Positions 6,091 to 45,284 of a stretch of 64,000 nucleotides of DNA are shown here, piece by piece. Both the position numbers and the translations under genes were made by a program. The notes under the pieces were generated by a model, which was not told where the DNA came from, searched no databases, and saw only the letters and a program-made list of their open reading frames with translations. This stretch comes from Zygnema cylindricum (lineage: Eukaryota > Streptophyta > Zygnematophyceae > Zygnematales > Zygnemataceae). How positions within the stretch are numbered: the stretch's first letter is position 1; each line of letters opens with the position of its first letter. The stretch lies in NCBI GenBank assembly GCA_037447655.1, contig JBBHKE010001973.1, positions 959,954 through 1,023,953 of the forward strand, given 5' to 3'.

Positions 6091-6165
6091 GCTTATTCAG
6101 CGGGAAAGTAGAAGGGGCAAATATTATCCTAGAGGCTTTACATAGGCTGCTCATTTTGTGGGTCA

Positions 6166-9100
6166 ATGGAGACCACAGAGTTTCAGGTTATGGGCCCACC
6201 CTCTAGGGTGCCCATATTTGATGGATCAGACTTTATTTATTGGGAAATGATGATGGAGGGAGAACTATTTGAGAAGCATTTATGGGGCATAGTGTCTGGA
6301 CAAATTCGATGCCCACCTCCACCTGGGTTTGGAGGGACACGTTTTTCTGGCACCTCCGCCTCTACAGTTGGTAGAACAGCTGCCACCATCACCGAGGATG
6401 AAGATGAGGAAGGAGAAGAGATTGTCATGGAAGGAGAAAAGGAAAGAGTTGCAACTCAAGTAACACCATTGCCGAAGGCGATACCGGCAGCAGCACCACC
6501 AGCAACAACGACAAGGGTTCAGACCGAAAGATCAGAGTATGAAAAGTGGAACTACAAAGACAAGGTTGCTAAGCTCTTAATTCTTAAAAGTGTAGCAAAG
6601 GGCATTGCCATTCCCCTTATGCATGTCAAATCTTCATCTCAGATTTGGATATCACTAGTTAACAAATATAAGAGTGGATCATTGCAGCAGCAACAGTTGG
6701 CAGAAAATAAGATTGCAGCTTATACTTATAAAGGAGGAAGTATGGATAATTATTGCAATGATTTAGGAGCATTGTTTGGAGATTTAGAGAGTGCAGGTAA
6801 CTCATGGTGTGAGAGACAAAGAGTGAACACATTAATGATGAAACTACCTGAAGAGTATGAGAATATCATTAACCGATTGCAGGACATAGGAGATAGCAAT
6901 TGGAATTGGGATGACACTGTGGGAATGATTTTAGTGAAAGAAAGCACCATAGAGCTTAGGAGAGGGAGTCCAAGTGTTCAAGCATTGTCTGCAGGAGCTG
7001 ATTGGCGGAAGCGTGATGAGGAGAGAGGGAAAGATCCTTATCGAAACTTTGGTGGAAGAGGACAAGGAGGTGGCAGATTTGATAGACAGGGGAGAGGAAC
7101 TTCTCGAGGAGGATTATGTCACTTCTGCAAGAAACCGGGACACTATATGGCAGATTGTGTCAGACTTGCAGATCTTCGACTGAAAGATGGTCAAGGAACT
7201 TCAAAGGACGGAGGAAAGAAAAAGGCTTTCCTGACTCAAGTTCTTGATGAGGAAGTGGAAGGAAAAACTGAACCTGAAGAGGAGCTTGAGGAGCTTCTCC
7301 TTAATCCGAAAAACACTGAAAAGCATGTCGACATTCCACGGAGACAAAAGTGTGCTTTCGGAGGTAAGAGGGATCCACCCGAGGATGGGTGGATTATAGA
7401 CTCAGGGGCTTCAATGCATATGTGCAAAGATAAGCGGTGGTTCACTAAACTGAGAAAGATCCCAACAGTTGAGATAGAGTACGGAGATGGTAGAGTAGAA
7501 ACCACAAGTCTTGTTGGAACTGTTGACTTGAAGGTTCTAGTTGATGGAAAGGCCTCAATTATAACACTCTCAGACGTTCTTTACATTCCACAACTTAGCA
7601 AGAACCTAGTCTCAACAGCTGTCCTAGATGAAAAGGAGTTTGAAACAGGAACTAGGAAAGGAATCTTCACAGCAAGCTTTGATAATGAGGTTTATTTCAT
7701 AGCTGAGAAGGGCAGTCAAGGAATGTTCAGAATTGTACTTTGCAATGAAAAGAGTGTTCTCTACTCGTGTGCAAGTGAGATGATGCTTTGGCATAAAAGG
7801 TTGGGGCATGTGCATCTAGATAGATTAAAGAAAATGAAGAAAAATGGAATAGTGGAGGGTATTACTTTTGAAGATGATGAGACCTTTGATGATTGTAGTG
7901 GATGTGCCCAAGGGAAGATTCATAGACTCCCATTTCCAAAGGCAACCACATTTAGGAGAGAGAAAGTATTAGATCTAGTTCACACTGATGTTTGGGGACC
8001 TGCTAGGTATGCCTCACATGGGGGGAAAAGATGGATGTTAACTATCACAGATGATTGGTCTAGATACACGAAGGTATACTTTCTCAGACATAAGTCAGAG
8101 GTATTAAGATGTTTCAAAGAGTATAAAGTATGGAGTGAAAAGCTACATGAAACCTCAATAAAAGAGATAAGAAGTGATAATGGGAAAGAATACACCTCAA
8201 GGGATTTTGAAGAATATCTTAAAGAAGATGGAATTCATCATGAGAAAACTGTTCCCTATAATCCGGAACAAAATGGGGTAGCAGAAAGAGTGAATAGAAC
8301 TTTAGGAGATATGTCCAGAAGTATGTTAAGTGATAAGAGGATAGGGCTGCAGTTTTGGGCTGAGTCTATGAACTATGCTAATTTCATCAAAAATAGAGTC
8401 CTAACTTCAGCAAATAAAGAGAAAACTCCGTATGAGAGGTGGACAGGAAGAAAGCCTGATTTGTCTAGTTTGAGAGTGTTCGAAAGTCAAGTCTACAGTT
8501 TGGATTCCGATAAGACTAAATGGAAATTAGAGGGAAGAGGGAAACCAGGATATCTTGTAGGTTATGATGAGAGCACAAAAGGATACCGAGTGTATGACTT
8601 GAAAAAGAGAGATATAATTTTGGTAAAACACATAGTGGTGATGAATGAAGAGAAGTCCATTGATCCATTCAAATATAATAAAGAAGTCAAAATCAGATTT
8701 GAAACGGATCAGTTTTCTGACTTTGACTTTGAAAATGAAGAGAAGGAAGAGGGAGAAAAAGAAAAATCTGCAGATCTACCAAAGGAGAAAGAGGAAAGGA
8801 CAACATCCGAGGCAACGCCACAATACGAAGTGGAAACCGATGAGGAACTTGATGAGACACCGCAATTGGAAGATAGGGAAGCTGAAAATTTCCCAAAACG
8901 AAACCCAAGAATGCCTTCCATACCAGCGTCCGATTTTGAAGGGGGAAGAAGAAGTAGTAAACGACTTCAAGAAAGACAAGTAAATAACCAACTCACAAAG
9001 ATGTCTCACCCAGATGAACCTCAAACATACTTAGAGGCCATAAACACTCCAGAAAGTAACCGGTGGATCACAGCTATAAATGAAGAAATGGCCTCTATCA

Positions 9101-10602
9101 TGGAAGCCAATACATGGGAGTTGGTAGATTGTCCACCGGACCGAAAACCGATCGGATGTAAGTGGGTGTTTAAACTTAAATTAAACCCGGATAATACCAT
9201 TGAGAGGTACAAAGCTAGGTTAGTTGCAAAAGATTATACACAGAAAGAGGGGATAGACTACGAAGAAACCTTTGCACCTGTAGTCAGATTTCCTTCTGTT
9301 AGAATCCTTTTAAGTATAGCCGCAACGGAGGATATGGAAATCCACCAGATGGATATTAAAACTGCCTTTTTGCACGGAGAGTTGGAAGAAGAAATTTACA
9401 TGAGGCAACCGGAAGGATTCGTGGAAAGTGGGGAAGAAAACAAAGTTTGCAAACTGATAAAATCACTCTATGGGCTTAAGCAAGCCCCGCGACAGTGGAA
9501 TATAAAGCTCGACGAATTTCTGACCGGTTTGGGGTATATCAGAATTAGTTCAGATCACTCTATATATTTATTTGAGGATGAGAATGGAGTGATATTTATT
9601 GCTATTTATGTGGATGATTTGTTGGTCTTAAGCAAGTCCTTAGATAAAATTAACAAACTAAAACGGGATCTTAGAAGCAGTTTTGATATGAAAGATCTTG
9701 GCGAAGCAAAGTACATTTTGGGAATTCAGATGGAGAGAGATAGAGGGAATAGAATTATAAGACTCACTCAAAAAGAAGCAATTGGTAATATGCTAGAAAA
9801 ATTTCAAATGGAGAAAGCAAACGGATGTACTACTCCCATGGATTTGAAGAAAGTGAGTGAGGGGAGTGAAGAGGGAGGAATATTCATCATTAATGATGAG
9901 ATGGACGAGATAGAAAGAAAATTTATGGAAAATATCCCTTATCGGCAGATTGTAGGCAGTTTAATTTATTTTATGAACTGTACCCGTCCGGATATAGCTG
10001 CAGCTGTAGGTGTCCTTAGTATAAATCTAAATGAACCAAGAAAGAGAGATTGGGAGGCTGCCAAAAGGGTGATGAGGTATCTGGTGGGGACAAGGGAATT
10101 ATGGTTGCATTTGGGAGGGGAGCACACTGACATCACCACTTGGAGTGATGCCAGTTATGGAGATGTGCCTTTAAGGAGGTGTACGACTGGATATGTGTTG
10201 CAAATTGGATCCGGTGCATGTTGTTGGAGTAGCAAGCAACAAAAAGTAGTTGCTCAGTCCACTATGGAGGCTGAATACATGGCTTCCTTTGCTGCCACCA
10301 AAGAATTAATGTGGGTTAAATCCCTTCTTGAAGAACTTGGGTTCATGAAGTCTGGAACTCAAAATGTTTTTTGTGATAATCAAGCTGCTATCTCTATTGC
10401 AGCTAATCCGAAACATCACTTCAAAGCTAAGCATATGGATATTAGACTAAGCTTTGTCAGAGAGAAGGTAGAAAATAAAATTATTAAACTGGTTCATAAA
10501 ACTGATAGAGAAATGATTGCAGACATGATGACAAAAGCAGTGCCTTCCCCTAAGTTGATTTATTGCAGAGAAAACTGTGGATTAAAATTGAAAAGTGACT
10601 AA
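6166..10602 (+). CDS. copia gag-pol polyprotein, 1478 aa, intact
   Basis: A single frame encodes all retrotransposon functions. Gag occupies about residues 1-400 with a zinc knuckle CHFCKKPGHYMADC near 318-331. Protease has the active-site motif D412-S-G. Integrase has the zinc-binding H543/H548/C577/C580 and the catalytic triad D608, D671 and E707 with the expected 35-residue spacing. Reverse transcriptase has YVDD at 1148-1151, and RNase H has D1328, E1368 and D1404. No stop or frameshift is seen. The first ATG (6166) lies within the LTR and the frame runs through the primer-binding site; the next ATG (6190) is inside the primer-binding site itself. If transcripts start upstream in the LTR either ATG may be used. 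Possible weakening changes are VFESQ and VAKDYTQ, where glycine is usual in related copies here. Confidence 0.95.
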   Translation: METTEFQVMGPPSRVPIFDGSDFIYWEMMMEGELFEKHLWGIVSGQIRCPPPPGFGGTRFSGTSASTVGRTAATITEDEDEEGEEIVMEGEKERVATQVTPLPKAIPAAAPPATTTRVQTERSEYEKWNYKDKVAKLLILKSVAKGIAIPLMHVKSSSQIWISLVNKYKSGSLQQQQLAENKIAAYTYKGGSMDNYCNDLGALFGDLESAGNSWCERQRVNTLMMKLPEEYENIINRLQDIGDSNWNWDDTVGMILVKESTIELRRGSPSVQALSAGADWRKRDEERGKDPYRNFGGRGQGGGRFDRQGRGTSRGGLCHFCKKPGHYMADCVRLADLRLKDGQGTSKDGGKKKAFLTQVLDEEVEGKTEPEEELEELLLNPKNTEKHVDIPRRQKCAFGGKRDPPEDGWIIDSGASMHMCKDKRWFTKLRKIPTVEIEYGDGRVETTSLVGTVDLKVLVDGKASIITLSDVLYIPQLSKNLVSTAVLDEKEFETGTRKGIFTASFDNEVYFIAEKGSQGMFRIVLCNEKSVLYSCASEMMLWHKRLGHVHLDRLKKMKKNGIVEGITFEDDETFDDCSGCAQGKIHRLPFPKATTFRREKVLDLVHTDVWGPARYASHGGKRWMLTITDDWSRYTKVYFLRHKSEVLRCFKEYKVWSEKLHETSIKEIRSDNGKEYTSRDFEEYLKEDGIHHEKTVPYNPEQNGVAERVNRTLGDMSRSMLSDKRIGLQFWAESMNYANFIKNRVLTSANKEKTPYERWTGRKPDLSSLRVFESQVYSLDSDKTKWKLEGRGKPGYLVGYDESTKGYRVYDLKKRDIILVKHIVVMNEEKSIDPFKYNKEVKIRFETDQFSDFDFENEEKEEGEKEKSADLPKEKEERTTSEATPQYEVETDEELDETPQLEDREAENFPKRNPRMPSIPASDFEGGRRSSKRLQERQVNNQLTKMSHPDEPQTYLEAINTPESNRWITAINEEMASIMEANTWELVDCPPDRKPIGCKWVFKLKLNPDNTIERYKARLVAKDYTQKEGIDYEETFAPVVRFPSVRILLSIAATEDMEIHQMDIKTAFLHGELEEEIYMRQPEGFVESGEENKVCKLIKSLYGLKQAPRQWNIKLDEFLTGLGYIRISSDHSIYLFEDENGVIFIAIYVDDLLVLSKSLDKINKLKRDLRSSFDMKDLGEAKYILGIQMERDRGNRIIRLTQKEAIGNMLEKFQMEKANGCTTPMDLKKVSEGSEEGGIFIINDEMDEIERKFMENIPYRQIVGSLIYFMNCTRPDIAAAVGVLSINLNEPRKRDWEAAKRVMRYLVGTRELWLHLGGEHTDITTWSDASYGDVPLRRCTTGYVLQIGSGACCWSSKQQKVVAQSTMEAEYMASFAATKELMWVKSLLEELGFMKSGTQNVFCDNQAAISIAANPKHHFKAKHMDIRLSFVREKVENKIIKLVHKTDREMIADMMTKAVPSPKLIYCRENCGLKLKSD
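6186..6200 (+). promoter_or_regulatory. primer-binding site (initiator tRNA-Met anticodon arm)
   Basis: GGTTATGGGCCCACC follows the terminal CA of the 5' LTR with no spacer and is identical to the site at 3715. It matches the internal anticodon arm, not the 3' CCA end, of initiator tRNA-Met, implying priming by a cleaved tRNA half. The gypsy remnant at 14290 uses the ordinary 3'-end site instead. Confidence 0.85.
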
Positions 10603-23017: not shown

Positions 23018-24277
23018 ATGGACTGAAAGAAACCAGATATCTCTCACCTTAAAGTATTCAGTAGCTTAGTTTACAGTCTTGACACGGATAGGAAAAACTG
23101 GAAACTAGATGCTAAAGGAAAACCTTGATACTTTGTATGATATGATGAGGATATAAAGGGATATAAAGTCTATGACTTAGGAAAGAAAGATATCATTCTG
23201 ATCATCTCTGACCATTCTATCAATATATTTGATGATGAGAATAGTGTGATTTTTATTGCAATTTATGTGGATGATATGTTGGTGTTAAGTAAGTCTTTGG
23301 AAAAGATGAATAAGTTAAAGAAATATCTTAGAAGCAGATTTGACATGAAGGATTTAGGGGAAGCAAGATATATTTTGGGAATTCAAATGGGGAGAGATAG
23401 GGGGGAAATGATCATTAAACTTACTTGGAAAAAAGCAATAGATAATATGCTTGAGAAATTCCAGATAGAAAAGGCAAACAGATATACCACTCCCATGAAC
23501 TTGATGAAAGTAAGTGATGGAAGTGTAGAAGGAGGAGTGATAATCTTAGATGATCAAATTAGTCCAAAAGAGTGAGAATTTATAAAGTCTATCCCCTACA
23601 GGCAGATTGTAAGAAGTCTAATATACTTTATGAACTTTACCATGTCGGACATAACGGAAGCAATTGGAGTACTCAATTAAAGTCTTAATGATCCTAAGAA
23701 GAGAGATTGGGAGGCAGCCAAGAGAGTCATGAGATATCTGGTGGGAACCACAAATTATGGTTGCATTTCGGAGGGGAGCACACTGACATCACTACTTGCA
23801 GTGATGCCATTTATGAGGATGCACCTATGAGAAGATGCACTTCTAGGTATGTGTTGTATGTAGAGAAAGGTGCTTGCTGTTGGAGCAGTGAGCAACAAAA
23901 GGTGGTTGCTCAGTCTACTTTGGAGGCTGAGTATATGGCCTCTTGTTCTGCTGTGAAAGAGTTGATGTGGGTCAAGTCCTTGTTGCAAGAACTGAGGTAT
24001 ATGAAAGAGGGAGTGCATGAAGTATTTTGTGATAATCAGGCTGACATTGCAATTGTAACCAATCCAAAACATCATTTCAAAGCTAAGCATATGGATATAA
24101 GATTGATTTTCGTGAGGGAAAAAGTTGAAAATAAAATTGTGAATCTTGTGTATAGATCTGATGAAGAAATGGTGGCTGACATGATGACCAAACTTCTGCC
24201 CTCTCCGAAGCTAAAATATTTTAGTGAAAAATGTGGATTAAAAGAGAAGTTAAAATTAGACTATAAACTAAGAGGAG
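23018..24277 (+). pseudogene. copia integrase/RT/RNase H remnant (copy F), internally deleted
   Basis: A short integrase piece (ISHLKVF region near 23038, in a broken frame) jumps near 23200 to RT (SDHSINIFDDENSVIFIAIYVDDMLVLSKS, 23207-23300) and then RNase H (EAEYMASCSAVKELMWVKSLL near 23925-23985; CDNQADIAI near 24025; KHHFKAKHMDIRL near 24067). Stops near 23573 and 23680. It ends CGLKEKLKLDY before LTR F. Copies E and F are close relatives. Confidence 0.9.
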
Positions 24278-24477
24278 TGTTGGAATCACTAGATTTATGG
24301 AGTATTTTCTAAATCTAAATAGCTTGTTAGAAAAAGCGTAGGCAGTGTGCCTCCACCTCTCCCCTCTATCCCCCATACTTGTTGTAGTCAGTGAACGAGA
24401 GAGGGGGTGGTGAAGCCATGGCTGTCTCAGCTCCATAGAAAGGACTAAATAGTGATATAAGTCACTCTCAACAAAAG

Positions 24478-28909: not shown

Positions 28910-31199
28910 TAGTCTCAACTCTCGAATCTTACAATGTCCTTTCTTAGTATCGTTATCCCGAGACCGGAGAAACAAGAAACCCAAAAAAAGTACTGAAGAA
29001 GAATAAATGCTCAAGAGACGTCAACACCAACAAATTTTGTCTAAAACTAGGAATTGAATTCTCATAAATATCGACAATTATGACCGAATAAAAAGCATGA
29101 GACGCAACAAGCCTCTATCCAATGTTTGGAAATACATTTCCCAGATTTGTACTAACACAACATGTGTATACTATCTATTTTTACATTCCTAGAAAGTGGT
29201 GCAATTCCTCTTAACAACCGAGGTGAAAAGAAGATTGTCATTTTGAAATCACCGAAACAAAACATCTTAAAGAATACAAAACAAACAAACATCTTTTTTA
29301 TTTGGTAGAGTGACAAGGGAGATTGACTTGTTCAATAGAAACAACCGTCCACAAAACGCAAAGCTAATGCATAGAAATCCTGTCATGTTTATTCCTTTGT
29401 TCTTCAACAATTGTTTGTTAAGCGAATAAATTTTCCATATTTATCTTTAAACCTTATTTGCTTACTTTAACATTTCAACGAACAATAGACACATTTCCTT
29501 TCAAAGAAATAGTGTAGAATACAAACATTTGCTTTGACCAAAATAGAGTACATTTGAAAGACAAGACCTCCATCGTAAACACTCTCCACACTAAAAAACA
29601 AAATACACACCCAATAATCCTAAAAAAACATATTTAAAAACACATTTACATTCTTGTTTCCAACCAAAGAGGAAAAAAGAGAAGGTTTTGCCTTCAACCG
29701 AAGGTCAAAATTGAAAAGCTTTATTTCCGTTGGTAGTCACCACACAAATTCTTTTTGGTCCTTTAGTGGAAGTACCATAAAGTTATATCCAAAAAGAAAG
29801 GAACCAAAAAAAGGGAAAGGGAAGAAAAAAAGACATCACAAATGTCTCTTGACAAATAAAGTACTGAAAAATCAAGAGCCCACCTACTTCCCGCCGATGT
29901 GACTGACGGTCTCGGTTCCATATTCTCAAACTGCCATAATTCCTTAATATCTTCTCGAGACCCTTTCTACTCTCTCACTCAAAACCCCAAACCCTAAATG
30001 GAAAAAAAAAATGCATGAACTATAAACAAATGTTTTGCCAGTTTTGAACCGAAACAACACCCTAACAAACTCAATTTCCTTCACACTTGATCAGTTTTCG
30101 TATCGTTATCGTTTTCGTATCATTGTTTTCGTATCGTTCAATTTTCGTTACGTTACTTTACGCTACGTTCCATTTCAATTTGTTTCGTATTCATTTCATA
30201 TCATTTTGTTCCATATCCTAACCTGTCGTATTGCAACGTCATCAAATTTGGATACACAAAAGATCAAATCTCGAGTCGTACTTTTGGCACACATCCTCTT
30301 CTAAACAAAAATAGTTTCAACCTCTTTTCATTTATACCCATTTGACGAGGCGAAAAAACTCATCCAAGAAAGAGGGGCTCCCAACTCTCATTTCTATGCT
30401 TTTTCCAACAAACTAAATTTCTCTCCTTCCCTGAAATCCCATGACGGCTACTCCCCTCTACCTCCAAAAAATCTTCCAATACTCTCCTCTCCATCTCCTT
30501 CGATGGTTTTGGCGTTAACTACAATGAATATTAAACGCGAATCTTGGGAATCCGGTTAAAGAGAGGAAGTGATAAAAACCTTCCATTGAAGGCTTCAAAT
30601 TCCCAAACCCTAAAAATGTCGTTCTCGGGAGTAAAGGGCTTTCTTCTCTTCCCTGAACCCTCTTGTACCTTTAATACCCTTTCGAACTCGTTCGTGGACC
30701 TATTACGAAACCCCTGTCTACACCAATTCACGAGCCGACGAGGCAAATCTAAGACCAGAAAGAGACAAAACTAGCTAACATATATATATATTATGCCACT
30801 GATTTATGGGAAAATGCCTCATAAACATTTTCTTCTTTCTAAAGCCTAGACTTCACCTTAAACAAGTACATCTACTATTTTTAAACCTCCTTGGCTAATA
30901 AAAATTCCAGAATCTTCCAGAAAACACACATACAAACAAAAAATGCCAAAATTCACAAGAAAGTTGGCAAACAAGGAACGTGCCTCATTGGAAAACGCTG
31001 GCGAATTCAGATTTTTCCTTCTTTCTTTCAGATTTTAAATTCTTCCCGAAATTCCAGGAGGAAGAAACTTTGCGTTAAAAGCTTGTTCAAGAAGATAGAG
31101 GGATCGTCTCCGTCCAAAATCCTCTTCCCCTTGTGGAGGAATTGGGAATTGCTGTGGCCGAGTCACAGAAATGAGGAGATCTCGAAAGGCAGCCTAGAA
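28910..31199. other. no confident gene; simple-repeat tracts
   Basis: A degenerate repeat of TTTTCGTATCGTT/TTTCGTTACG type lies at about 30094-30222. Two minus-strand stretches could be 3' exons of the DCD/poly(A) polymerase gene but are unproven: 30538-30750 (open, after an acceptor-like CTTAG) and about 31027-31151 (after CCACAG). Everything else is unassigned. Confidence 0.35.
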
Positions 31200-31990
31200 T
31201 AGGGAAGGAGAGAGAGAGAGCGAGTGGAATAGGAAAAGAAAGGAAGGAAAACAGGGCGCAAGAAGGAGAAGGTGAAAAGGGAGAAGAAAGAAAGGAGAAC
31301 GTGAAACGAGGAGAACGAGAGAGAGAAGGAAAAAGAAGGAGAACAGAAGGGATGGGGGAACAAAAAAGAAGGAGAACAGAAGGGATGGGGGAAGAATGGA
31401 AGGGAAGTTAGGAAAACCATTTCATACTCACAAGAAACATAAAAAACCAAAAGAAAAAGACCAAGGAATACAATAACAGCAGAAAGAAAAGATTTCCTGG
31501 TTCTATAAGGGTCATTACGAAAACAAAAACTGGGTTGTGGAAAACTTAAATTCCCTCATCCAAAGAAATTTCTACGACACAAAAACAGGTCAACTCCCAG
31601 AAAATGGAATGCCTCAGAAATAAGAAATATAAAAATTACAAATGCGGGCACTCTTTAATATCCGTTTTGTAAAGCAAGCAAATAATTCTCCGCTCTTTAG
31701 ATATAGAGAGAGAGGAGAGACAAGAGAGAAGGAAGAAGGGGGGAGAGAGGGAGGGAGAAAGACAGAGAAAGAGAGGGAGAGGGAGAGTGAGAGGGAGAGA
31801 GAGATTAAGATACTAACTTATTACCCAATCCTTACACTCTCTATTGGTTTGCTAAGAGAACCAAACCCTACAAATCATTTGAACCCCTGGGAAAATGAAA
31901 TCAAAAATCTGCAAAGTCGATTCACCTTTACTTACCATCTAAATGCTCTACAAAACCATGGAAAACCCAAAGATAACCGGGAGAAACCAA
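31200..31990. repeat. purine-rich (GA) tracts
   Basis: GA-rich stretches at about 31200-31400 and 31700-31806, with GAGAGAGAG runs and AGGGATGGGG repeats. They create long but meaningless charged frames. They lie downstream of the last placed exon of the DCD/poly(A) polymerase gene, possibly in an intron or 3' flank. Confidence 0.6.
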
Positions 31991-32036
31991 AGAAAAACCG
32001 TAAAAAAAACAGAGAAAATCTTTAACTTCGACTCAC

Positions 32037-35000
32037 CTGGACATGCCAGATGGCGAAAGATCCTGCTCCAATATTGGCTCCAGGCCTCAGAGGATCGTCT
32101 ATCCATAAAGCAGTCGGCCTCTGAGACGGGTCGTGCCAAAAGACTCCATCCTGTAGTCCATTGTCACTCTGCGAATCCATACGGAGAAATTTGGTATAAA
32201 TTATTACAAATTGCTTGAATCATTTTATGTAGTACTGCCAAACAAGTTTGACTGTGAAGATTTTAATGCACGACTCATAGGTAATTGGGGTTTAAGAAAG
32301 ACATTGCTTCATTTCCGAGTATCATTGCTAAAAGAGCTGGAAAAACAGTTATCAACCTACCCATACCGACAGAGTATTCAAGTCGAAATTGGAGGTTCAA
32401 AACATTTATTTTTGCCCGGTCACTTGAACCGAGGGACAACTAGTTTTTCACAAAATGAAAAAATCGAAAAAGAATTGAAGCTTACATCAGCAGTTTTGTT
32501 TCTACATGTACGCAAAGTACACAGAAAATACATATGAAGTACACTTGAAATAATTCCAAATATGCAATTTACATGTAAGCATAAAATACGTGAAGTACAC
32601 ATAAATTACACAGAGTACGCATAAAGTGCGGATACAAACTGCAGTAATTACGTTACTCAACTGTATTTAACTGTACTAAAAACTGGAATTGACATGTCTT
32701 CTTTGCTTCTTCAAGACATTTGAAGCTACAGCTTACACAAGAAATTAACTCTATTCAGAAAATATTTGTTTATATTTTTTGAACTTATCCCAAAAATAGA
32801 TGTGCCAACTATCCAGAAAACAATTAGTAAAAGTTTAAATACTGAACGGTAATCAAAACTGGTTTTGGTCCAGACAAGCATTCATTTTATCACCTCTAGG
32901 AAACACACGTAGAATGTGTGGTCTATGTTCATCATTAACATACGATCTCCTACAGTCTACACACATAAGTGTGACTCAAGTCCGTGTGTTCAAGCAACAT
33001 CCTTGCAATGTTGTGCTCTGCCATTTAAAAAGTTAAATAATTACACATAAAACGACCCATCTAAACACCATTTCAGCCTTTCAGTCTAGTGTGTCTTTTT
33101 TTCTGCTTATTCCATACTATTATTTTGTTTATTCCGTACGAAAAGGACTGAGCTTTCTATAAGTGCATATGGTCAGTACAGACCTTACACGAAAGTATCT
33201 CTTCATAGGATAAACCTACTAAGACTGTCAGTTTTACACCACATTTCTATACAGGCTCAAAGTTTTTTGGTTTTTTGTTTTTATTTTAGAAATGTGAATA
33301 CATCATATTACAGAAAAGGATTCAAATGACCTGAAGGGAAAAGTAAAACACAAGTCGCAGCTGGTTTAAACAGAATAAACAAAGGTTAAAACGTTAAAAC
33401 TAGGTTTTGTTGTTGGAACTCTCCGTGTTTGACGTTTAAACCAGCGACATTCATTAAGGTAATTTCTGTACGGCTCAGGATGAAACGCTCCATCACGTCG
33501 CGCAGTACAGAAACGTCTTACAGAACATGCGGTCGTCACGCAAAGCAAGCCGCACGAGCGGTGACCGAGTCAACGGTGGAGGTTCGCGCGAGGTCGCATC
33601 GGACTCGCGATGTCGCCACCGAAACGCAATCATGATAATCAAAATCGAACGGTAGACGCGGGACGAAATTGATGGAAAATGGACGGACGAGATCAGATTC
33701 TGGCTCGGGTGCCCAATCCTACCCTCGACTGATTGACCGACCAATTTGAACCAACCAGGAGACAACCCCGTGGAGAAAGAGAAGAACCAATCAAAAGACT
33801 GTGCAGCGAAGAGATCTGCCGCCTAGCTGGCCAGATTAAAGAAAAAAGCACAAAAAACAAGAGCTCGCGTGACAAAAGTCCAGAATCCCCACGTGACAAT
33901 AGGGACACGGTACGGATGTCCAGACTTACGTACTTATGGAATCTAGCAAGCTGCCACGACTGCAAGTTTCTGACTGTACGGTGAGTCAAGAACCAATCAA
34001 ATTACGTTAGAAACGTTGCAGTCGGTGAAATACAGCAGACACCGCGAACAAGAAAAATGACGTGGAGGTTTCGATGTGGCTACCAAAATTTAAACACCGA
34101 CAAAAGGACTATGTACGGACAAGCACATGACAACAAACTTACAGAGCACACAAAGACAGAACGTCCTAACCTTCCAGATTCCTTCCACAAAGATCAAACA
34201 AAACCCTTGTCGGCGCCGCTAATAATTAGGCCCAATGGGAACAATAGCCGGGAGAGAAAACTAAGGTTAAGGGTCAGCTTTACAAACAAATTCTTAAGTT
34301 CACTCTAGGTTAGATTGTCGACCATAAGTTAGATGCATGGTTCTCTGTAAGAATAAGCGACTTTTTGAGGCATGAAAAGCATGTATCTTCTAACGGCCCT
34401 TAATTCTTCCCCTGAACCCATTTAAAGAAGAGTCGTCTTAAATTGATGATAAAATAGTGTGGCACCTTATAGAAATGGAGCTCGACTTAAAACAAACTCA
34501 TAGACAAAAATGTAAAAATTTAAAATTAACACAATCAGTTCAAATTTATACAAAAAGCCAACATAGCTTGGGTAATATTAACATAGAAAACTATTGAAAG
34601 GATTCAGTATCCTTTAAAAAAAACAATAGCATACGCGCCAGGATAGAAAACAGAAAAACCCATAAGGCTAATACAATGAATCAATTGCCAGTTAATACAT
34701 CATTAAATATTAAGTGCAAAAAAAGAAAGAAGAACAAAGAGGAGAAGGAAAAAAAAGAAAAAGTACCCCAAAAAAAAAGAAAGAAGGAAAAAAAGTTCAA
34801 ACAATGCAAAAAAAAGGAAAGTTCAACCATGGTTCACATGTGTCTCATCCACCAAAAAAAAAAAAAAATTACTGGAAAATGTGTGATTGAACCAAAAAAA
34901 AAAAAAAACGCCAACACAAAAATCACTTGTACAAAAAATAAAACATACCTTCAACACTAAGCGAACTCGTGAAAAATCGATCTCGTGTCCAAAAGCTTGG

Positions 35001-38000
35001 AGAAAACCGACCAATAAAATACCAAAACTTGGAGATGGAACCGATTTTATGGAATCTGGAAGCTCCTCCACAATGCTTTTCCCTTCAATTCCGAATCTCG
35101 ACTTACCCAAAACCGCCCTTTTTGGACTGCTACTAACTAGTGGGGAATTTTCTGGAGCAAAAACCTCCTTTCCCTTCTCTCCCTCCGAGGAAAGGCGGTC
35201 TTCAATTGCAGAAGAAGGAGAACTACATTCCTGTAACTCCAGCCCCTTTTCTATTTCCAGTTCCCTTCCTGTTTCCAGTCCCTCTTGTAAATCAAGTTTT
35301 TCTTGTATTTCCTCACTTGGCAAGGCTCCTTCAGAGGTATTTTCTCTGTTCCTTCCTCTACTTTGAATCTCGTCGCTAATATTTTCACCGTAAGCCTCTA
35401 ATAGTGCCACATGCTCCTCTCTTCCCTGACAACTTTCTGACACGTCGGCTCCCCTAAATTGAGAAGTCTCTCCCTCCCCTTCTCCAGCCACTCCACCTCC
35501 AGCTTCCTCCAGCTGTTTGGCATCCCCAGAAGTTGCCAAACTTGACTCCTCTTCTGACGCCACAAAAGAGACTACTTCTCCTCCCTCTCCCTCTCCTCTC
35601 TCATCTTCCTTGCTTTCTGATAATGCATTCGATGTATTTTCCTTGGAGATAGAGCATACTTCTCCTTCAGAAGGGTTTGCTCCCATGGCGACTCTCTCAC
35701 CTTCTTCTCTACCTAGTCTCTCCTCAGAGCTTTCCTCTATATTTTCCTCGGAAGGTAGTTTTGAACCGGTTTTCAAAATACTATTTGGGAGAAAATCAGC
35801 GTGTCCCATTTCATTTGTCTTTTCTGATTCAAAAGTAGATTCTGATACATAAGAAGGTCCTTCATAAGCAGCTTCTGCAAACAAAAGAGAGGGAGGGAAG
35901 GAAAGAGGATAGAGTTACGAGAAAGGGAGAATAAGCGAAAGAAACAATAACCTAGCCTAATTAGCAAAAAGTAATTTCCGCAAGAAACAAAAAGCGTAAT
36001 CTCACCTGTTGAATTCCCTACAACAGAATCCAATATCAGTGACTCCCCATCCTCTCTCACTCCTCCTCCCACTTTTCTCCCTTCTATAGTTGCATCCTCT
36101 CCTTCAGTTTTTGTAAGAGATGGAGCTTGATGAGGAGAAGAAACCTCTTCCTTAAGAGCTCCTTCCTCCTCTCTCACATTTGAAGAGATTCCTTCTACTT
36201 CCTCCTTCCTCACGTTTGAAGAGATTCCCTCTCCCTCCTCCATCCTCAGATTTGAAGAGATTCTCACTTCTGTCGCATGAATTATGGTTACAGAAGATGG
36301 ATGGGATCCAGAATTTTCTGATGAGACAGATAAGTAACTGGGTGGAGCACATGTGGGGACTCCCACAGGTACAGGTGCTCTCTGACAAAAAAAAAAAAAA
36401 AAACTCAGTTCAGCCATTTATGCTTTGCTATCTCCTTCCTCCTCTTCTTCCCTCTGTTGTCTATTCCATGCATGAAACCAGGAGTATACATTGATATGTA
36501 ACAAGACTGGGCCTTATCGGACTCTCTTTCTTCTCTCTCTTCTCTCCCTTTTCTTTTCAACTCTCACTAGGTCTCTCTTTTTTCCTCTATTTCTTTCCTT
36601 TTCAGTGTTTTCTGTGAAAAAACAGGAAATGCCCACGGAGGTGGCATGAAAGTAGATCTTCGAAACTCCTCTCTGCCTATCATTCTAATTCTGTTCTTTC
36701 CCAAATCTCTTTCTTTCCTTTATTCTTTATTCCTTTATTCCTTTCTTTCTTTCTTTCTTACAAAAGAAAAACAGAAAGAGGATATCCAAATCGATGGTAA
36801 GCCTTGAATGCAAAATACGAAACTGTCACAGTCAGGCCACCATACTGACCTAACCTGAGAGTAGTATTAAGTTGAAGCCAATAATAGTATTTTAACATTT
36901 CAAAAAAAATGCATTAATGCCAATCTGACAGTTATGATTTTACTTATCGGTTTCAGAATTTAAGAGATAAAATTGACCACACAGTCTACATGTAAGAAAG
37001 TACGGTAACCTTGTCCTACCAGCTCCAGTACTGTAAAACTATATACAGACAAAATTACAGTTTCAAAACTACATTGTTTTAAGTCTTGGAAGTTAACGGT
37101 GCCATAGGTACTTCACACTTTCATTTAGATTCAAGTGTTTTTACAATATGGGAAAGGTCAGGGATTTGATTTAAGAAACTGAAGTCATTTAAGTCCCAGA
37201 CCTACATGATTTTAGCTACCAATTTTTGAAAAGATCCACAAAACCAACCTCAAGGTAGAAAACCAGCATTAGTGTGAGAGAGAAGGAGCCCAGGCCTCCA
37301 GTATAAACGTCGTTGAGGCCTCGATGTTGCAACCAAGATTTCAAGAGAAGGACCTGCAAAAGAATTACAACAACATTTAAGTGTATGCATGATAGCAAAA
37401 TTAACAAACGACATTACCCCAACCATTACCAAAAAATGCTTTAGTGGAAAAACTTACAAGTGGAGCAAGCGCCGGAAGTCTTTGCATTCTCTCCTTCACA
37501 AATTCTCTCGCTGCTTCTCCATTATGAGCATTCACAGCATCTGAAAGTTTCATCGTCCACTCCTTACTTGTTCCCTCACTTCCATCGAGGGCACTTGGTC
37601 TACACCCAGCTATCGTAATATCCATGGCAACCGGAGGAAGACTAACATTTTTATACGAAGATATTCCCGAAACTTGATCACCTCCGGAATTTGCACCTGG
37701 AATTTCCCTAGTACCAACATTGCTCACACTCTCCCCATCGACATTCTTGTGTGCATTACCGTCTCCGCCTACCCCTCCTCCCACTTCCCCCTCAGAGTGC
37801 TGAAAGGACAAAGGACTAGCAGCAGCTTCTTCCTGCGATACTGAAGACCTGAGTTGTGGTTGACATTTTAATTTAATCACAGGAATTCTTGCAGTTTCTA
37901 TAGTATACATACTCTCACACCACTCTTGTTTTTGGAGAAGAGCAGCAAGGTCCCTTATTAAAGGGGCATTAATTCTAGCTCCTGATAAAGCCTGGGTTTC

Positions 38001-41000
38001 AGGGGTATCTGGAGGAGGAGGAGCATTTATTATCGCTAAATCCACGTCACTATTTGGAAGAGCAAGGCCAGTGGCAAATGAACCAAAAACCTGTTAAAAA
38101 AAAGGAAAAGAAAAAAAGAGCTCAGAAAAACAGAAACCGGTTCAGAAAATACTCAGGAAAACCACAGACATGTTGAAAGCCAGTCCAGAAAACTAAAAAC
38201 ACAGCTAAAATACAAAAAAGTACCCTAGGACTCCACAGCAGAAACAACAATTCTGAAAATAACATCTGACGATGTCAACATGAAATATATATATGCAATT
38301 GTCCTATCCTCTCCCCATTTTTCCAAGCGAGCTTTGCAAGAGTTCCACAAATCCTTCCTACTTTCTATTCTCTCAAGTCTTTATGACGAAAGTCCAGCCA
38401 CTCATCATTAAAACAAATAATCTTGCAACAAAAACCTACATAGGTTTAAAAACCTAGCCGAGAATTATCTCCCCCCCCTCCAGAACCAGAAAGTACATAC
38501 CTCTACATTCGCCCCAGGCCAAAGTGATTTCACCATTCCTCTCACGCAATCTACCGCCGATTCTGCCCTTGCCCTAGCCTCCTTCGGGGGTCTCACCAGC
38601 TCCGAATAATCCATAACTTCATTATGGAGAACTGTCACATTTGAAAGAAGAGCCGAAGCTGGCATTGGAAAATGGGGATGCCCCACAATTGGAGATAATA
38701 GTGGTTGAAGCCCACTCAGAGGCGAAAATAGGGCCGCAGGTTGATTCTGGGTAGGAGGAATAACATCAGATGGAATACGGGGAGTGAGAGTACGATAAAT
38801 AGGAGAGACAGGGTCTCCGGAATTAAATCCTTGTCGAACTCGGGAAGCTCGATTATGTGGGGAAGCTGGTTGAGAATGTGAATAGACAGGCGAGAAATGA
38901 TGAATTGTCGGCGAAGTTAGTCCTAAAGGAGGTGTAGATATTCTAAACGGGGGTGCAGCTGCAGCTGAAGGAGGGAGAGGGTGAAGCTGAGGTGGTGGCT
39001 GTAAGATAAGAGGAGGTGTCTGAATATCCTGTCGAAGAGGAGGAGTAAGCTTCCTTTGGGGAATTTTTTCATGATAATGGTCACTAGAATGCTGTCTTGG
39101 AGCAGGCCGAGTATGAACTCGGGGAAGAGTTGCATGAGAGTTAGATGTAGAGGTAGTAGGTTGTCGACTACTAATCTCCTTTACAGAACTTTGAGATCTG
39201 GGAACCTCACCTTCAGTACCCCACTGAGCAAGTCTTCGGAGGTCAGCAGGAGACGGAGATGACGCTATCTTCATTTCAACTCCCTGTTCCTCCATTTCTC
39301 CAGCGATTGCCTGAGTGACTCCGTTAGGTGGACATGGAAAATGAGCCTTGGATTGAAGGGAAGGAGGAGGACGATGAACTTGTGCTGTCTCTGGCTGTGA
39401 AGATTGGGACACTGCTGGAACATTCCTTTGTCCTGCCAGCTGCAATCTTGTCTGTTGTGATTGAATTCCCGCTTGAATTCCTGTATCTAATGAAGGGGTT
39501 TTCTCTGTTTGCCAAGCCTTATTGCTCAGATTAGAATTAGAATCAGTATCGTGGGTTGCAAGATGCCTTAAAATCGCCCCATCATTTCCTTGCCAAGCTT
39601 GACGTCTTACTATTGGTTTTGAAATAGTACTAGTACTCCCCTCGACCGGCTTAGTTGTACTAAGTAATTCTGCGCTATTAGAAGCCTGAGGTCTTACCTG
39701 AACGAGCCCACTTACTGGACTTCCTTCCCCTCCTTTCACCAATTCCACAGGAGTAACTCCTTGACTTTTGCGAATTCTAGCTGTAGCAGCATTGCTAACA
39801 GAAGTAGAAGAGTTAGAAGAGGTAGAAGGAACAGAGGAAGGAGTGACTACCTTCACAGAACCTTCTAAGCGTGAGGCTTCCTTCCCTTGTTGGACAACTT
39901 CCATTCTTCGTCCCCAAGCAAAGGGTTTTTCAGCTGTACTTGTTGATACTCTATGTGCTTCTCCAGATATTCCATTTTCCATCGGTTTTCCCATCTTTTT
40001 ATCTGCTTTCCCATTAGTCTGGACACTCTCTTGATGCTGTGCTCCTTTACCACCTGTAGAAGGTACTCTTTCGGCATCTCCATTAGCCCGTTCTCGCACA
40101 ATTTTCCGGTTATTTCCACCCACACTATGACCTCTTCCACTAGGTAAAACCCGAGGTTTAGGAGTTACGGGAGCTGTTTGGCTATTGCTAGTTACGTTGT
40201 TAACATTGCCATTACCACTGAATCCATCGTAAGCTTTTGACTTTCCACCAGACTGAAGGCCTCCATTTCCAGGAACATATCCAGCAGTCGGAGGAGTAGA
40301 GAGAGGAGTAGAGAGAGAATCTTCTCCGGTACTTTGACTTTGTTCAAATCCTAATTCCCCAGTAGCTCCCCTAAGGGCAGCTGCAAATGATACCGGCTTC
40401 ACCCTCATGTCAATAACACTACTACCAGGACTAGAAGACGCAGAAGTTTTCACGTCATCGGCTTTTACATCACTTTTCACATCAGTTTTTACATCAAATT
40501 TGACATCAGTTTTCACATCAGTTTTGGAGATTGCATCATTTTTTGCGTCTAACAGACAGGAATGACTGCTATTACTGTTGTGAGCTGTCAAGGAAGAAGT
40601 ATCTTTTGAATCTCTGACTGTTGAATAGCCACTAGTACCACCAACATGACCTCCCTTTGCCATAGTAGGTCCATGATGATGAGTTTTGTTCCCTGTTCCT
40701 CCGTTACTACTTCCTCCATCACGATGATTACGAAACCCTCTCCTCCCTCCTCCCCATCCGTCATGATGGTCCCGATAAGAATCTCGATGATGATCCTCTC
40801 CTCCTCCTCTGGTTGTATTGGAAGAACCTTGAGAGGGTCCAGAACCATCAGGATCCACCCTCCATCGAGGAGCATCTGCTCCGTCTGCTCTCTGTCTATC
40901 CTCCACATCTCTCCCTCTCGAATCATGATCCGTAAAACTATTATTATTTCCATGTCCAGCGGAGGAAGAGTAGCCGTTTGGTTGACTCCCTCCATGACGC

Positions 41001-43455
41001 CACTTCCCTGGAGAAGAAGCTCTTCTCCCCCAAACCCCACCCCTGTGACTTCCTGTCGCATGATTTCGAGTGCTCTTACTCCTCCCCTTCACCTTTTCCC
41101 ACTCACCCCCGTCGTCCTCTACTTGGACAGAAGCCTCCAGTTGGGAAGATGTCTGATTCTCTTCCTCCAGTGAACCACCAAATAATACTAAGAGTCTTTG
41201 AACCTGGTAATAAGAGGCACATATGCCCGATTAGAAATTTTCTCTACTCAAAATGCATCTTAAAAACCACCCCAACACATCACCAGAATTGCGAGATTCC
41301 TTCCCCTCCCCATACTCCCTCTTCTCCCCCCTCTCTCTCTCCTTCTCTTCTCCCTTTCCCCAGCTCTCTGGCCAGTCAGCGGCCATATGGATGACAGGTG
41401 TGATATTATCAAAAAAAAAAGTAGTTCTCTTACCTGTTCTTGAGAAAGCTCCAACCGAAATTTTGGACCATCATAATGATGCAAAACCGGACGAAATGCC
41501 TGTTCTGATAAAGGAGGACGCTCCTCCCGTAGACGAACCCTTACCTGAAAGCAAAAAAATAAATTAAGGAAAAAAATAGGGGCATGAATTTTATAATCCA
41601 AACACGCCAATCAAATTAATCACTAGACATGTTAATCACTAGACATATAATCGAGTGTGCTATTTATAACAAGCAAAACTTAGCTAAATATAATGTGAAT
41701 TGCCAGGGATTTGTGAACAGTAAAACAAAACATCGTGATACAAGCAAAGCTTTTGAGTGTATATAGACAAGAAACCAAGAATTGGAAAAATGTATCAAGA
41801 GAAATTGCACCTGAGAAGGAAATCGTGAAGCTGGTCGGCCATTCTTGAAGTCCTTATTTTCCCATGCTATCGGGTCAAGGTTTAAACCACCCTCACTTGA
41901 CGCCTTCAACATCCCCAAATGTATTGCTAATGAGCTACCATTTTTATTTACTATGCTTCGAAATCATTAAAAATCTTCACATTTATCTTCTTACAAATGG
42001 TATGATCCAGTAAATGGCTGCCCGGAGTTTTACAGCATGCAATTTCTTTAAGCTCCAACAATAAAAAGCTAGTTAACCTTTGATGACTCTTGTAAAAGAA
42101 TTAGCAAACCAAAAAAAAAAAATCATGGACCTCTTAACTACAGAAGTTTTCTTCCTCTTTTACAACATCCATTCACAAGAAGAGATACGCCTCCATGCTT
42201 CAATTATAATTATGCTGAGGTTTACATGTTTCAAAAAGTTATTACATAGTTTTGTAAGATATGGGGTTGACATTATATGGAGAACGTGCTAAAAACAATA
42301 AATGCAAAGAAAATATTGATGACGCAAAATAGAAGGGAGAGAGAGTGGGAGAGAGAGCGAGCAAGAGAGAGGGAGAAAAAGGGGGAGGAAGAGGGGGGAG
42401 AGAGAGAGAGAAGCCAAGGGAAAGACAAGGCAAGGATGACTACAAGAGGCGAGTGAAACACTTTAAAAACCTTATGACACACCTTTAAAAAAACCTTATG
42501 ACATACCTCAAAAATTCCATGGAGCTGATGCATTGTATAGTTGTAGAGAAACAATGGCATTCCTGGTTGAATCGCCCTTACTGAATCATGATATCTCTGA
42601 GGTAAACCTGTCAGCAAAAACATCACATAAAGGCAGTTTTAGGATCAGGAAAAATGGCCAACAACATCAGAGAGAAACAAATCCTATAGGGAAAGAAAAA
42701 AACATAGGATAGAACAGATTACAAAGTGTTAACAAAGCGTTGGCAAAAGCGAGTGAGAAGACCATAGACGTAAAGAAAGAAGCAATTTTGGAGGACAAAT
42801 GAGACAAAAAAATGGAAGTTGAACTAGTTTTTTTCAGAGCATTTGTATGAAAGAAAAGGTGTGAGTCTTCACCTTAATTGTAACAATATTACAGACAGAG
42901 CCAGCATAAAGTAACAAGAGATGAAAACAAAATATACCAGAATTGAGATGAAAGAATCACATTAACTGAATCCATCATTATTTCCTACCAGATTATGCTT
43001 ACCAGAGAGTTTTTAGCTTGAATCTTCTTCCATCTCTAACACTTCCTCACAAGAAAAAAGAAGCATAGGTAATGAGGAAACACATGAAAAAATCATGATT
43101 GAACCGTAATTATAAAAGACAATAACGACAATGACAAAGGAAAAACACATACGCCTGTTTCTACCGTTAGTACCGTAGGGTGTACTTACGGACAAAAAAT
43201 TGCTTAAACTCATGGTATCGTTATTACAGAAAAGACGACAATGACAAAGGAAAAGATATAAATTTCAGAAACATAGAACTTACCAAAAAGATTTCGCTTC
43301 AAATCTTCCCCCATAGTATCGTTATTACAAACAAAAATATAGCCACCGAGTGGCTCGTGCAATGGAGGTGCGTCATTGGACGACAGCGTTGCAGGAGATC
43401 TTCGATCTTCGATTCCCATTGGTTCCTGGAGACTGTACGGACGGTGAGCCACCAT
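32037..43455 (-). CDS. DCD-domain / TRF4-type non-canonical poly(A) polymerase fusion gene, 3' end open
   Basis: Ten exons in phase with GT..AG borders: 43455-43284, 42607-42507, 41903-41811, 41544-41434, 41203-38501, 38090-37458, 37353-37249, 36381-36006, 35874-34949, 32168-32037, giving 1784 codons. Residues 37-167 form a DCD domain (GGYIFVCNNDT, LFGLPQRYHDSVRAI, PLFLYNY, HGIFE, FRLELSQEQ), a plant module linked to stress and cell death. About 850 disordered residues follow, rich in Ser, Gly and Asn, with a K-T/S-DV repeat. From 1018 comes a TRF4/PAPD5-like nucleotidyltransferase: LHNEVMDYSEL, then GS...D1075-V-D1077 and D1217 as metal-binding residues, LLLKSWLQHRGLNDVYTGGL, an acidic insert 1307-1715, then GILLVGFLQAFGHEIDFS and IDDPLRPGANIGAGSFAIW of the PAP-associated domain. 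The expected role is nuclear RNA oligoadenylation or surveillance. Start: first in-frame ATG after a stop, context GCAGCCATGG. The last exon(s) are unresolved; reading from an acceptor near 31919 reaches a stop near 31850. Confidence 0.85.
32169..34948 (-). other. large intron of the fusion gene (about 2.8 kb)
   Basis: It joins GTATGT after LVLK to CAG before SDNGLQDG in the same phase. It holds degenerate ATAAAGTACAC repeats (about 32500-32640) and a GC-richer patch at 33430-33650. Frames inside (for example plus 32211-32537) show no known domain. Confidence 0.6.
42330..42430. repeat. GA-rich tract in an intron of the fusion gene
   Basis: GAGAGAGAG and GGGGGAGG-type runs, about 100 bp, between exons 2 and 3; CT-rich on the sense strand. 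No coding homology. Confidence 0.7.
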
Positions 43456-43598
43456 GGCTGCCACCGCCCCTTGCAGGGGACTCTCCACCTCTTCACATCT
43501 GCTGACTTCAGCTGGCGTCAGACTCGTGGCTCAGAGAAGGGGGGGAAGGGGAGAGAGACAGAGAGCGGGGGAGAGTGGAGGGAGAGAGAGAGCGAGCG

Positions 43599-43708
<110 letters not shown>

Positions 43709-43730
43709 AGAGAGAGGGAGAGGGAGAAAG

Positions 43731-45284
43731 ATATTCTAGATTTCTTAGGTTTGGAGAGAAAAGCTGGGATGGAAGTTGGCAACAAAAGGACAGAAAGTGA
43801 GGAGTCGAGAGGCTCTCTGTTTCTCTAAAACTCTTTCTAAACTCTTTCTTTCTTCTCTATGTTCCTCCCTCTCTGTCCTTCTCAATTTCTTTCACTCGTT
43901 GGTTAGAAGCTCCTGCGTTTTCGTGTCGGCTCTGTCTTCTCCTCTCTCCTTCTCCCTCTTCCCCTCCTCACTTTCTTTGTTGCTCTTTCTTGGTCTTCTG
44001 AAACTAGGTCAATGAGAAACTGAATATACTGGCAGTTTCAGAAAAGAAAAAAACACAATTCTGCAATGTAAAACCTCTACTAGTCTGTATTTTCTTGCTC
44101 TTCAGATATTGACAGTTAATAGTCTAAAGTTCGTATAGTATCCTCGGTTAATATTTTCTCGGCACTCCTGTCTATGCAAATTATGGCGTATATCACTTCA
44201 ACTTCCAAATACCGAATATATCAAAAATTGTCGGCTTAAATGCCAATTTCTCAATGCTATTTCAAGCGAAAGTTCACAATTGCCAAGTCTTTAAGTCAAA
44301 AAAGAGTCAAATTCTCCCAAAAAGACACAAACACTTTTCCACAACTTGATGAAAATAATTGTAAAAAGGAGAATGGATGCTCAAATCAAATATTTTCGAC
44401 GAAAACAAGTTAAAAAAATGGCTCGGGAAAGCTGCAGTTTTGAGTAAGAAGTGTTGAGGAGACTACTGCTTCACAAATCCTAATATCTTCACAATGCTAA
44501 CTTTGTACAAACCCTAAATTCCGGCGGCGCAAGGTAGACGGTACAAAAAAATGACGGCCGTCAGAAATATTCTCTCGGCAATGCATGCTGTTCAATAACT
44601 TCAAATGCAATCATGCTTTGTACCTGATGGTTTAACCATCGTGCATTTTGAAATAAAAACTTTTCTATTCCAACCATAGGTTTAATGTGCGAAAACTGTT
44701 GGAAACACTTAACCCTATATATTTAGGCCCCGTATAGTATGTTGTTCAAACAAAAAATACGACAGCCGCAAATAGTAAGCGTACTGTAAGGGCAAACAGA
44801 ATAAAGGGAACATACCATTTTAACCAAGCTCAGCATTTAGCAAGTTTCCCCCTCTTTAAAGTGGTCACAGTCACGCCAACAAAGGTGGTGGGGAACTGGA
44901 CGACGGTCGAAAGAGTTATGCCGTACAGCAGAATAGCCAGATGGCATACCGTCAAGTGTAGCGTCAACAGTGTTGTACTGCGACGTTCTTTGATTTTAAC
45001 GTTTTACATTGACATTTCTATGTTTGTTAATCGTGTTCTGGTTTTATCAGTAATTTTCCGATAAGAAGTACGAGACGGGTATAAGGTACGATATGGATTG
45101 CTTATATTTGACTGTATGTTGTAATAGATAAATAATCAAATATACATATCAATATTTAATTATTTATATATGTTCGTGAATAGATGTACTCTCCTTTATA
45201 TATCTTCGAGAAAACATATGTAAAAATGAGCAATTTGCCAATTTACCATACGTTTCACAAAAGTATGTATTTAAATGATAATAT
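43731..45284. other. intergenic spacer upstream of the fusion gene
   Basis: No gene recognised. T/C-rich sequence continues to about 44000. A GATGGTT/AACCATC hairpin with an AATAAA-type tail at 44626-44660 resembles the LINE-like 3' ends found elsewhere here, but no longer similarity was seen. Confidence 0.45.

Follow-up and report, generated by a model that had tools for sequence, protein, structure and literature searches.

Enzymes of the TRF4/PAPD5 (TENT4) type are nuclear and add oligo(A) together with zinc-knuckle and Mtr4-type partners. The DCD domain occurs in stress-related NRP proteins, in which it is supposed to serve as a protein-protein or localisation module. The solved core of yeast Trf4, the poly(A) polymerase of TRAMP (PDB 3nyb), carries no DCD. 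As partner domains of DCD, the accessible text of Tenhaken 2005 (PMC1182354) gives Kelch and ParB, unlike the nucleotidyltransferase partner described here, and the words "polymerase" and "nucleotidyl" are absent from it. In the part of its text that is accessible, a survey (PMC7641849) places DCD in an EVE/YTH-like group of modified-base readers, reports DCD joined to RNA-processing domains in other proteins and describes the ligand of plant DCDs as unclear; the YTH-DCD-KH CPSF30 and DCD-CAPAM-like proteins it covers combine DCD with an RNA 3'-end or RNA-modification module, as does the present fusion. "Nucleotidyltransferase", "bryophyte" and "Selaginella" are words absent from that survey, and the accessible parts of the two papers mention no plant DCD that binds nucleic acid.

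The locus analysed here lies in a 64,000-nucleotide stretch of Zygnema cylindricum DNA (the window) and, as proposed in the initial annotation, joins a DCD domain to a TRF4-type nucleotidyltransferase in a single gene, judging by its Pfam domains and by Trf4 as its best structure match. The gene occupies positions 43455..31035 of the minus strand, with 11 exons encoding 1,836 aa (table). The ten exons first read in one frame were all present and stop-free (1,784 aa), and VQRLLVLF of the DCD and LHNEVMDYSEL of the polymerase were indeed found in one open frame within the exon 41203-38501. The gene end had been set wrongly at 32037, as exon 10 has a GTGAGT donor and an eleventh exon carries the stop. 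Upstream of the ATG of exon 1 there is a stop in the same frame, and an N-terminal MV or MA is also found in most aligned relatives. When compared with the proteins of relatives, all ten splice junctions fell inside ungapped alignment blocks: junctions 1/2 to 6/7 were backed by proteins from mosses and lycophytes (P0010, P0014 and P0027, in all of which the alignment is ungapped at both junctions of exon 3), and the last five, 6/7 to 10/11, were crossed by P0059, an ORF from a closely related, sister species.

Features of the DCD–nucleotidyltransferase gene, in window positions
Feature	Position	Strand	Residues	Content
Exon 1	43284..43455	-		ATG at 43455, MVAHRPYS...; first DCD strand GGYIFVCNNDTM; donor GTAAGT
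Exon 2	42507..42607	-		DCD, GLPQRYHDSV...LHGIFE
Exon 3	41811..41903	-		DCD, ASSEGGLN...SRFPSQ; weak acceptor and donor
Exon 4	41434..41544	-		DCD, VRVRLREE...FRLELSQEQ
Exon 5	38501..41203	-		2,703 nt, single open frame: DCD end, linker, start of polymerase core
Exon 6	37458..38090	-		nucleotidyltransferase, GSFATGLALPNSDVDLAI ... MDITI
Exon 7	37249..37353	-		VLLLKSWLQHRGLNDVYTGGLGSFSLTLMLVFYLE; junctions 6/7 and 7/8 spanned by P0059
Exon 8	36006..36381	-		first part of acidic insert
Exon 9	34949..35874	-		remainder of acidic insert, then SFGILLVGFLQAFGHEIDFSRVRLVLK
Exon 10	32037..32168	-		PAP-associated region; IDDPLRPGANIGAGSF at 32102-32055
Exon 11	31035..31193	-		AAFRDLLISVTRP...LLEQAFNAKFLPPGISGRI, then stop; resembles C-termini of relatives
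DCD domain	41177..43347, spliced, exons 1-5	-	37-168	Pfam PF10539
Low-complexity linker	38651..41176	-	169-1010 (842 aa)	between DCD and polymerase
Catalytic Asp	38048-38046	-	D1075	GS..DxD motif
Catalytic Asp	38042-38040	-	D1077	GS..DxD motif
Third catalytic Asp	37620..37622	-	D1217	MDITI
Acidic insert	35069..36375	-	1309-1700 (392 aa)	net charge -48; in polymerase part, exons 8-9

In the polymerase part, Pfam called PF22600 (E 1.6e-14) and PF01909 (E 1.5e-9), and the palm and central-domain fold of a terminal nucleotidyltransferase (TENT, pol-beta-like) was found, which is shared with yeast Trf4. The Asp triad proposed from GS...DVD and MDITI is intact (D1075, D1077 and D1217); in an alignment of 55 rows that includes the window protein, the GS..DxD motif is present in 54, and so is the third Asp. 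The GS..DxD, GGLGSFS and DP.....NI..GSF regions of Trf4 align with the family, with a marked difference in spacing between the FYLE and SFG blocks, which are ~13 residues apart in Trf4, 57-407 in ten family rows measured and 407 in the window protein. The PAP-associated domain of the initial annotation gave mixed results: the IDDPLRPGANIGAGSF region aligns with the corresponding region of Trf4, but PF03828 was not called in the window protein at E values up to 0.001, in a scan of the protein without exon 11. PF03828 also fell under its cut-off in all eight relatives scanned, six giving sub-threshold scores (at best 22.2 bits against a cut-off of 22.6, in Selaginella) and P0018 and P0025 not being listed.

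With a family profile, the closest solved structure by sequence was Trf4 (E 2.1e-36), followed at a large distance by Cid1 (2.6e-12) and TUT7 (2.2e-5). This ranking argues against a uridylyl- or mixed-nucleotide transferase in place of an adenylyl transferase. Cid1 selects UTP through H336. The GANIG loop of the present enzyme has no His, which may likewise speak against uridylyl specificity; the title of one PDB entry refers to an H336N mutant with MgATP bound. Overall, an enzyme with uridylyl or mixed specificity appears improbable.

The identity of the DCD was confirmed by a Pfam scan in which PF10539 was called well above its gathering cut-off (133.7 against 27.8 bits, E 4.2e-39) at residues 37-167, covering the full profile (1-126 of 126), and the predicted model of the domain has pLDDT values mostly >90. 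Presumably this DCD is of the NRP kind. The domain is what the fusion has in common with the plant NRP-kind DCD proteins in the accessible text of PMC1182354, and the likeness extends to gene structure within the same genome, where the positions of both introns flanking exon 2 are, by inspection, common to other DCD genes and one such gene is identical at 49/55 positions over exons 1-2. Given the shared intron positions, the DCD part was probably acquired in the form of genomic exons. The top PDB sequence matches for the domain were UPF0310/EVE proteins, all non-significant (E 0.43 and 0.56 with a single sequence, 0.14 with a profile). Structure-search lists contained polymerase folds only among the 50 matches listed in each and were uninformative on the DCD.

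Between the two parts, the linker retains short conserved motifs (GGEWEKVK, PRWRVD, SFAAALRG, WQGNDGAILR and FRISTPP), and in the Selaginella model it is disordered by pLDDT. A long disordered linker with such motifs suggests partner docking and, taken with the close identity to another DCD of the genome and with an EVE link that stays below threshold, is consistent with a real fusion and real tailing in which the DCD serves for protein-protein contact or localisation, recruits the polymerase to a body of the stress or decay kind and reads no RNA modification. Against this stands the survey's assignment of DCD, in its accessible text, to the EVE/YTH group of modified-base readers with fusions to RNA-processing domains (PMC7641849). 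We regard such a localisation role as quite possible.

The fusion is not peculiar to this locus: the searches yielded 54 family proteins, and a DCD was called in 48 of them. Its carriers are zygnematophyte algae, liverworts, mosses, lycophytes, ferns and two conifers, so that the bryophytes, lycophytes and charophytes in which a search for the same architecture had been proposed all contribute members; flowering plants were absent among the named matches. The six proteins without a called DCD comprise four fragments or partial models (P0024, P0025, P0031 and P0059), Klebsormidium P0056 and Diphasiastrum P0026, in which the DCD is degenerating, and the domain may thus not be required everywhere. 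Separate DCD and nucleotidyltransferase genes also exist in the Zygnema genome; no positive support was found for a merger of two adjacent genes by the gene model or the assembly. Such a merger was rejected in practice, as a single 2.7-kb exon covers both parts, 48 proteins of many lineages share the architecture, and DCD and polymerase lie in one ORF of 1,347 aa in moss P0014, whose contig does not exceed 5,252 nt. Together with single-contig ORFs that group with ferns, such as P0034 (959 aa, contig of 3,997 nt), P0014 and the conserved architecture also counter the possibility of separate transcripts or of a fusion lacking in relatives.

Where resolved, the DCD tree and the polymerase tree both broadly track the species, and the window protein is placed among the zygnematophytes. 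The DCD tree contains fusion rows only, with 11 of its 19 inner branches open, and is silent on how fusion DCDs relate to other DCDs. As both trees roughly follow the species, the fusion probably predates land plants. In databases the family proteins are annotated as "hypothetical" or "DCD domain-containing"; judged from sequence, this is a streptophyte family with a conserved architecture, already in public databases though unnamed. No published description of a DCD–polymerase fusion was found, within a very limited coverage of the literature, and absence from flowering plants may explain why it was overlooked. A distant relative, P0063, combines DCD and polymerase with an RRM-like end; a search of viral contigs with it gave no match.

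In the tree, the fusion family groups separately from a second kind of TRF4-like protein, with outgroup branches that are few, long and partly unresolved. Representatives of the other type (Riccia P0051 and Spirogloea P0052) share PF22600 and PF01909 with the fusion and differ from it in that PF03828 is called, DCD is not, and they sit in a separate clade on a long branch. Riccia sorocarpa has both types (fusion P0002 and P0051), and so does the window genome, in which L015 on contig C102 is 80% identical to P0052 and 75% to P0051 over 83 aa; the fusion as sole TRF4 orthologue is thus unsupported. At least nine DCD and at least seven nucleotidyltransferase matches were found in the window genome. 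Among the matches listed, the two kinds share a contig only on that of the window and on C1851, where they are ~91 kb apart, and a second fusion copy was rejected on the strength of these matches.

We infer that the protein may be an RNA 3'-tailing enzyme whose DCD picks the substrate, a reading that we give about an even chance. A long flexible linker connects the DCD with the TRF4-like terminal nucleotidyltransferase, whose Asp triad is complete. The DCD would bind selected RNAs, perhaps modified, or RNA-protein particles and hand them to the polymerase; the 3' tail added by the polymerase would be short and most probably oligo(A), flagging the RNA for exosome-mediated trimming or decay. Partners would probably dock at the linker motifs, and in the plants that have it the fusion would act next to further TENT genes instead of being the only TRF4. 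A bolder version, tentative and rather doubtful, would make the protein a reader-writer for RNA 3' ends: the DCD would recognise either a modified base or a structure that such a base marks, with the covalently attached polymerase tailing that RNA, so that the modification state directly sets decay. Such a system would have arisen in streptophyte algae, been kept in bryophytes, lycophytes, ferns and conifers, and been lost in flowering plants, in which case work on Arabidopsis could not have revealed the link.

If flowering plants lack this enzyme, as they appear to, one may ask what took over its role there. The family represents a predicted RNA-tailing enzyme, deeply conserved in plants, with an accessory domain built in, and its relatives in Physcomitrium and Marchantia make it experimentally tractable now. 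The DCD, linked to cell death and stress through a molecular role that is still unclear, would thereby gain a direct enzymatic context.

The initial annotation had placed a DCD domain and a TRF4-type polymerase in a single gene. When the gene was rebuilt from sequence, the ten exons proposed there could be read through in a single frame, bounded by GT-AG and free of stops, and the 2,703-nt exon ran stop-free from the last DCD strand via the linker into the polymerase. The fusion was thereby upheld, but the end at 32037 was not: exon 10 carries a good donor (GTGAGT) and the gene therefore extends further, into an eleventh exon that was traced via the C-terminal tails of relatives. The complete product of the 11 exons is 1,836 aa, and a stop codon lies in frame upstream of the start codon. 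A long CT/GA microsatellite directly upstream of the start codon is probably within the 5' leader. Elsewhere, the window holds an intact copia-type gag-pol ORF (1,489 aa; RVT_2, 1.6e-82; integrase; gag) and two further ORF pieces judged copia-like by eye, the first of which gave no match in a Pfam scan.

Features of the fusion gene and its surroundings (window positions)
Feature	Position	Strand	Remarks
Fusion gene, initial annotation	43455-32037	-	ten exons
Exon joining DCD and polymerase	41203-38501	-	2,703 nt
Exon 11	31193-31035	-	TCTAG acceptor before; TAA closes
CT/GA microsatellite	43530-43800		upstream of start codon
copia-type gag-pol ORF	6133-10602	+	intact
copia-like ORF piece	1773-2645		by eye only
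copia-like ORF piece	23698-24312		by eye

The splicing was supported by matched proteins. P0059, a 623-aa ORF on a 2,016-nt contig, shares 484 of 614 aligned positions with the window protein (91% identity across 294 tree columns) and aligns ungapped over junctions 6/7 to 10/11; it is taken to be the spliced counterpart from a close relative. Junctions 1/2 to 6/7 fall within ungapped alignment blocks with the matched proteins P0010, P0014 and P0027. P0014, a 1,347-aa ORF, includes the whole Physcomitrium UniRef protein P0012 (1,223/1,223), and because its source contigs measure at most 5,252 nt, it suggests that in moss a single mRNA carries both DCD and polymerase. The source tag 'lgn' presumably denotes assemblies of public sequencing reads.

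Three protein searches, two limited to 7,986 scored candidates each and a conifer-query search scoring all 6,743 candidates (464-1,475 aa), identified at least 54 family members (P0001-P0049, P0055-P0059), in several cases isoforms from a single gene. These come from liverworts (Marchantia paleacea, two Riccia, Calypogeia), mosses (three Sphagnum, Ceratodon, Physcomitrium), lycophytes (Diphasiastrum, Selaginella), ferns (two Adiantum, Ceratopteris), conifers (Cryptomeria, Taxus), zygnematophytes (two Closterium, with Spirogloea and Mesotaenium deduced from identifier prefixes) and Klebsormidium. Among the matches listed, Pfam DCD was called in 48 of the 54. It was not called in P0025, P0031, P0059, P0024 (an ORF that starts at the exon-5 border and apparently reads into introns), Klebsormidium P0056 (a 548-aa model starting just ahead of the polymerase) or Diphasiastrum P0026 (19.2 vs 27.8 bits). 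The last, paralogue 02G, has a decaying DCD but retains the polymerase together with several motifs of the linker. Partial matches with no Pfam domain listed (P0050 and P0053, the latter with a DCD-like start), other TENTs (P0051, P0052, P0054, P0060-P0062, P0064-P0066) and P0063 were excluded. In ferns (P0036, P0038-P0040, P0043, P0049, P0055, P0057, P0058) the family has expanded, with five genes in Ceratopteris richardii (11G, 23G, 20G, 29G, 01G) and three in Adiantum nelumboides. Among the matches listed, gymnosperms were represented by the two conifers only, hornworts by none, and angiosperms by none of the rows with a named source. Sequence searches thus make loss in flowering plants likely, and only likely, since two of the three scored a limited number of candidates and some rows carry no taxon.

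A quick-method tree of 46 polymerase rows gave the family branch an SH-aLRT of 99 and grouped the window protein with P0059 and P0024 (97), adjoining Closterium and Mesotaenium. Ferns and conifers came out as starred groups; many deeper forks were open, Klebsormidium was placed among zygnematophytes and several outgroups formed long branches. A DCD tree of 23 rows, all from fusion proteins, recovered window, Closterium and Spirogloea (85/84), ferns (100/99) and conifers (100/100), with 11 of 19 inner branches open. The branches that are resolved fit a common history of the two halves. P0063, a 1,036-aa protein from a JGI contig, combines a distant DCD (7.6e-10), a nucleotidyltransferase and an RRM-like C-terminus (18.3 vs 20.7 bits), and its long branch groups with the family (SH-aLRT 95). 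The link between DCD and polymerase may predate streptophytes or have two origins.

Between FYLE and NLG.LL, Trf4 has ~13 residues, whereas the ten family rows measured hold from 57 (Cryptomeria) through 87 (Selaginella) and 140 (Sphagnum) to 407 (window, whose insert has a net charge of -48). Linker islands (GGEWEKVK, the WRSDSDS block, SFAAALRG/SYSAALKSG, WQGND..LR, RISTPP) show conservation that spans algae to mosses and is weaker in Selaginella, certain islands missing from single rows; the alignment comprises nine of 14 chosen rows, the cutting pattern not having caught P0029, P0019, P0032, P0038 and P0034.

The window's 352.8-Mb genome contains further DCD genes. By inspection, L007 has introns at both fusion-gene positions, one interrupting LFG in phase 1, the other following GIFE in phase 0; the donor sides of both are visible in L008, and L006 shows the acceptor of the first intron together with the second intron. 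Fusion and L007, whose DCDs are of the kind named NRP, are identical at 49 of 55 positions across exons 1-2. Because intron places and sequence are common to the two, the DCD half was probably acquired as genomic exons. L007 and L008 appear near-identical in the exons seen, on separate contigs, and are recent duplicates or uncollapsed alleles. L015, on another contig, is a separate TRF4-like exon (over 83 aa, 80% identical to Spirogloea P0052 and 75% to Riccia P0051).

DCD and polymerase are each of known kind. In a limited literature search, the available portions of PMC7641849 and PMC1182354 made no mention of a conserved streptophyte enzyme in which the two are covalently joined. Database labels of family proteins read hypothetical, uncharacterized or 'DCD domain-containing'. 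Trf4-type TENTs tail nuclear RNAs for the exosome. PMC7641849 argues that DCD is a member of the EVE/YTH-type modified-base readers and that it is joined to RNA-processing modules in algae and choanoflagellates, and calls the plant DCD ligand unclear. Sequence searches of PDB with the DCD give a hint in this direction: UPF0310/EVE structures ranked first, but with E values of 0.43 and 0.56 for the single sequence and 0.14 for a profile, which are not significant. From what is known of these families, the most likely picture would be a flexible two-part enzyme, in which the DCD, perhaps by reading a modification, an RNA or a protein, is predicted to locate RNA and the polymerase would then tail it.
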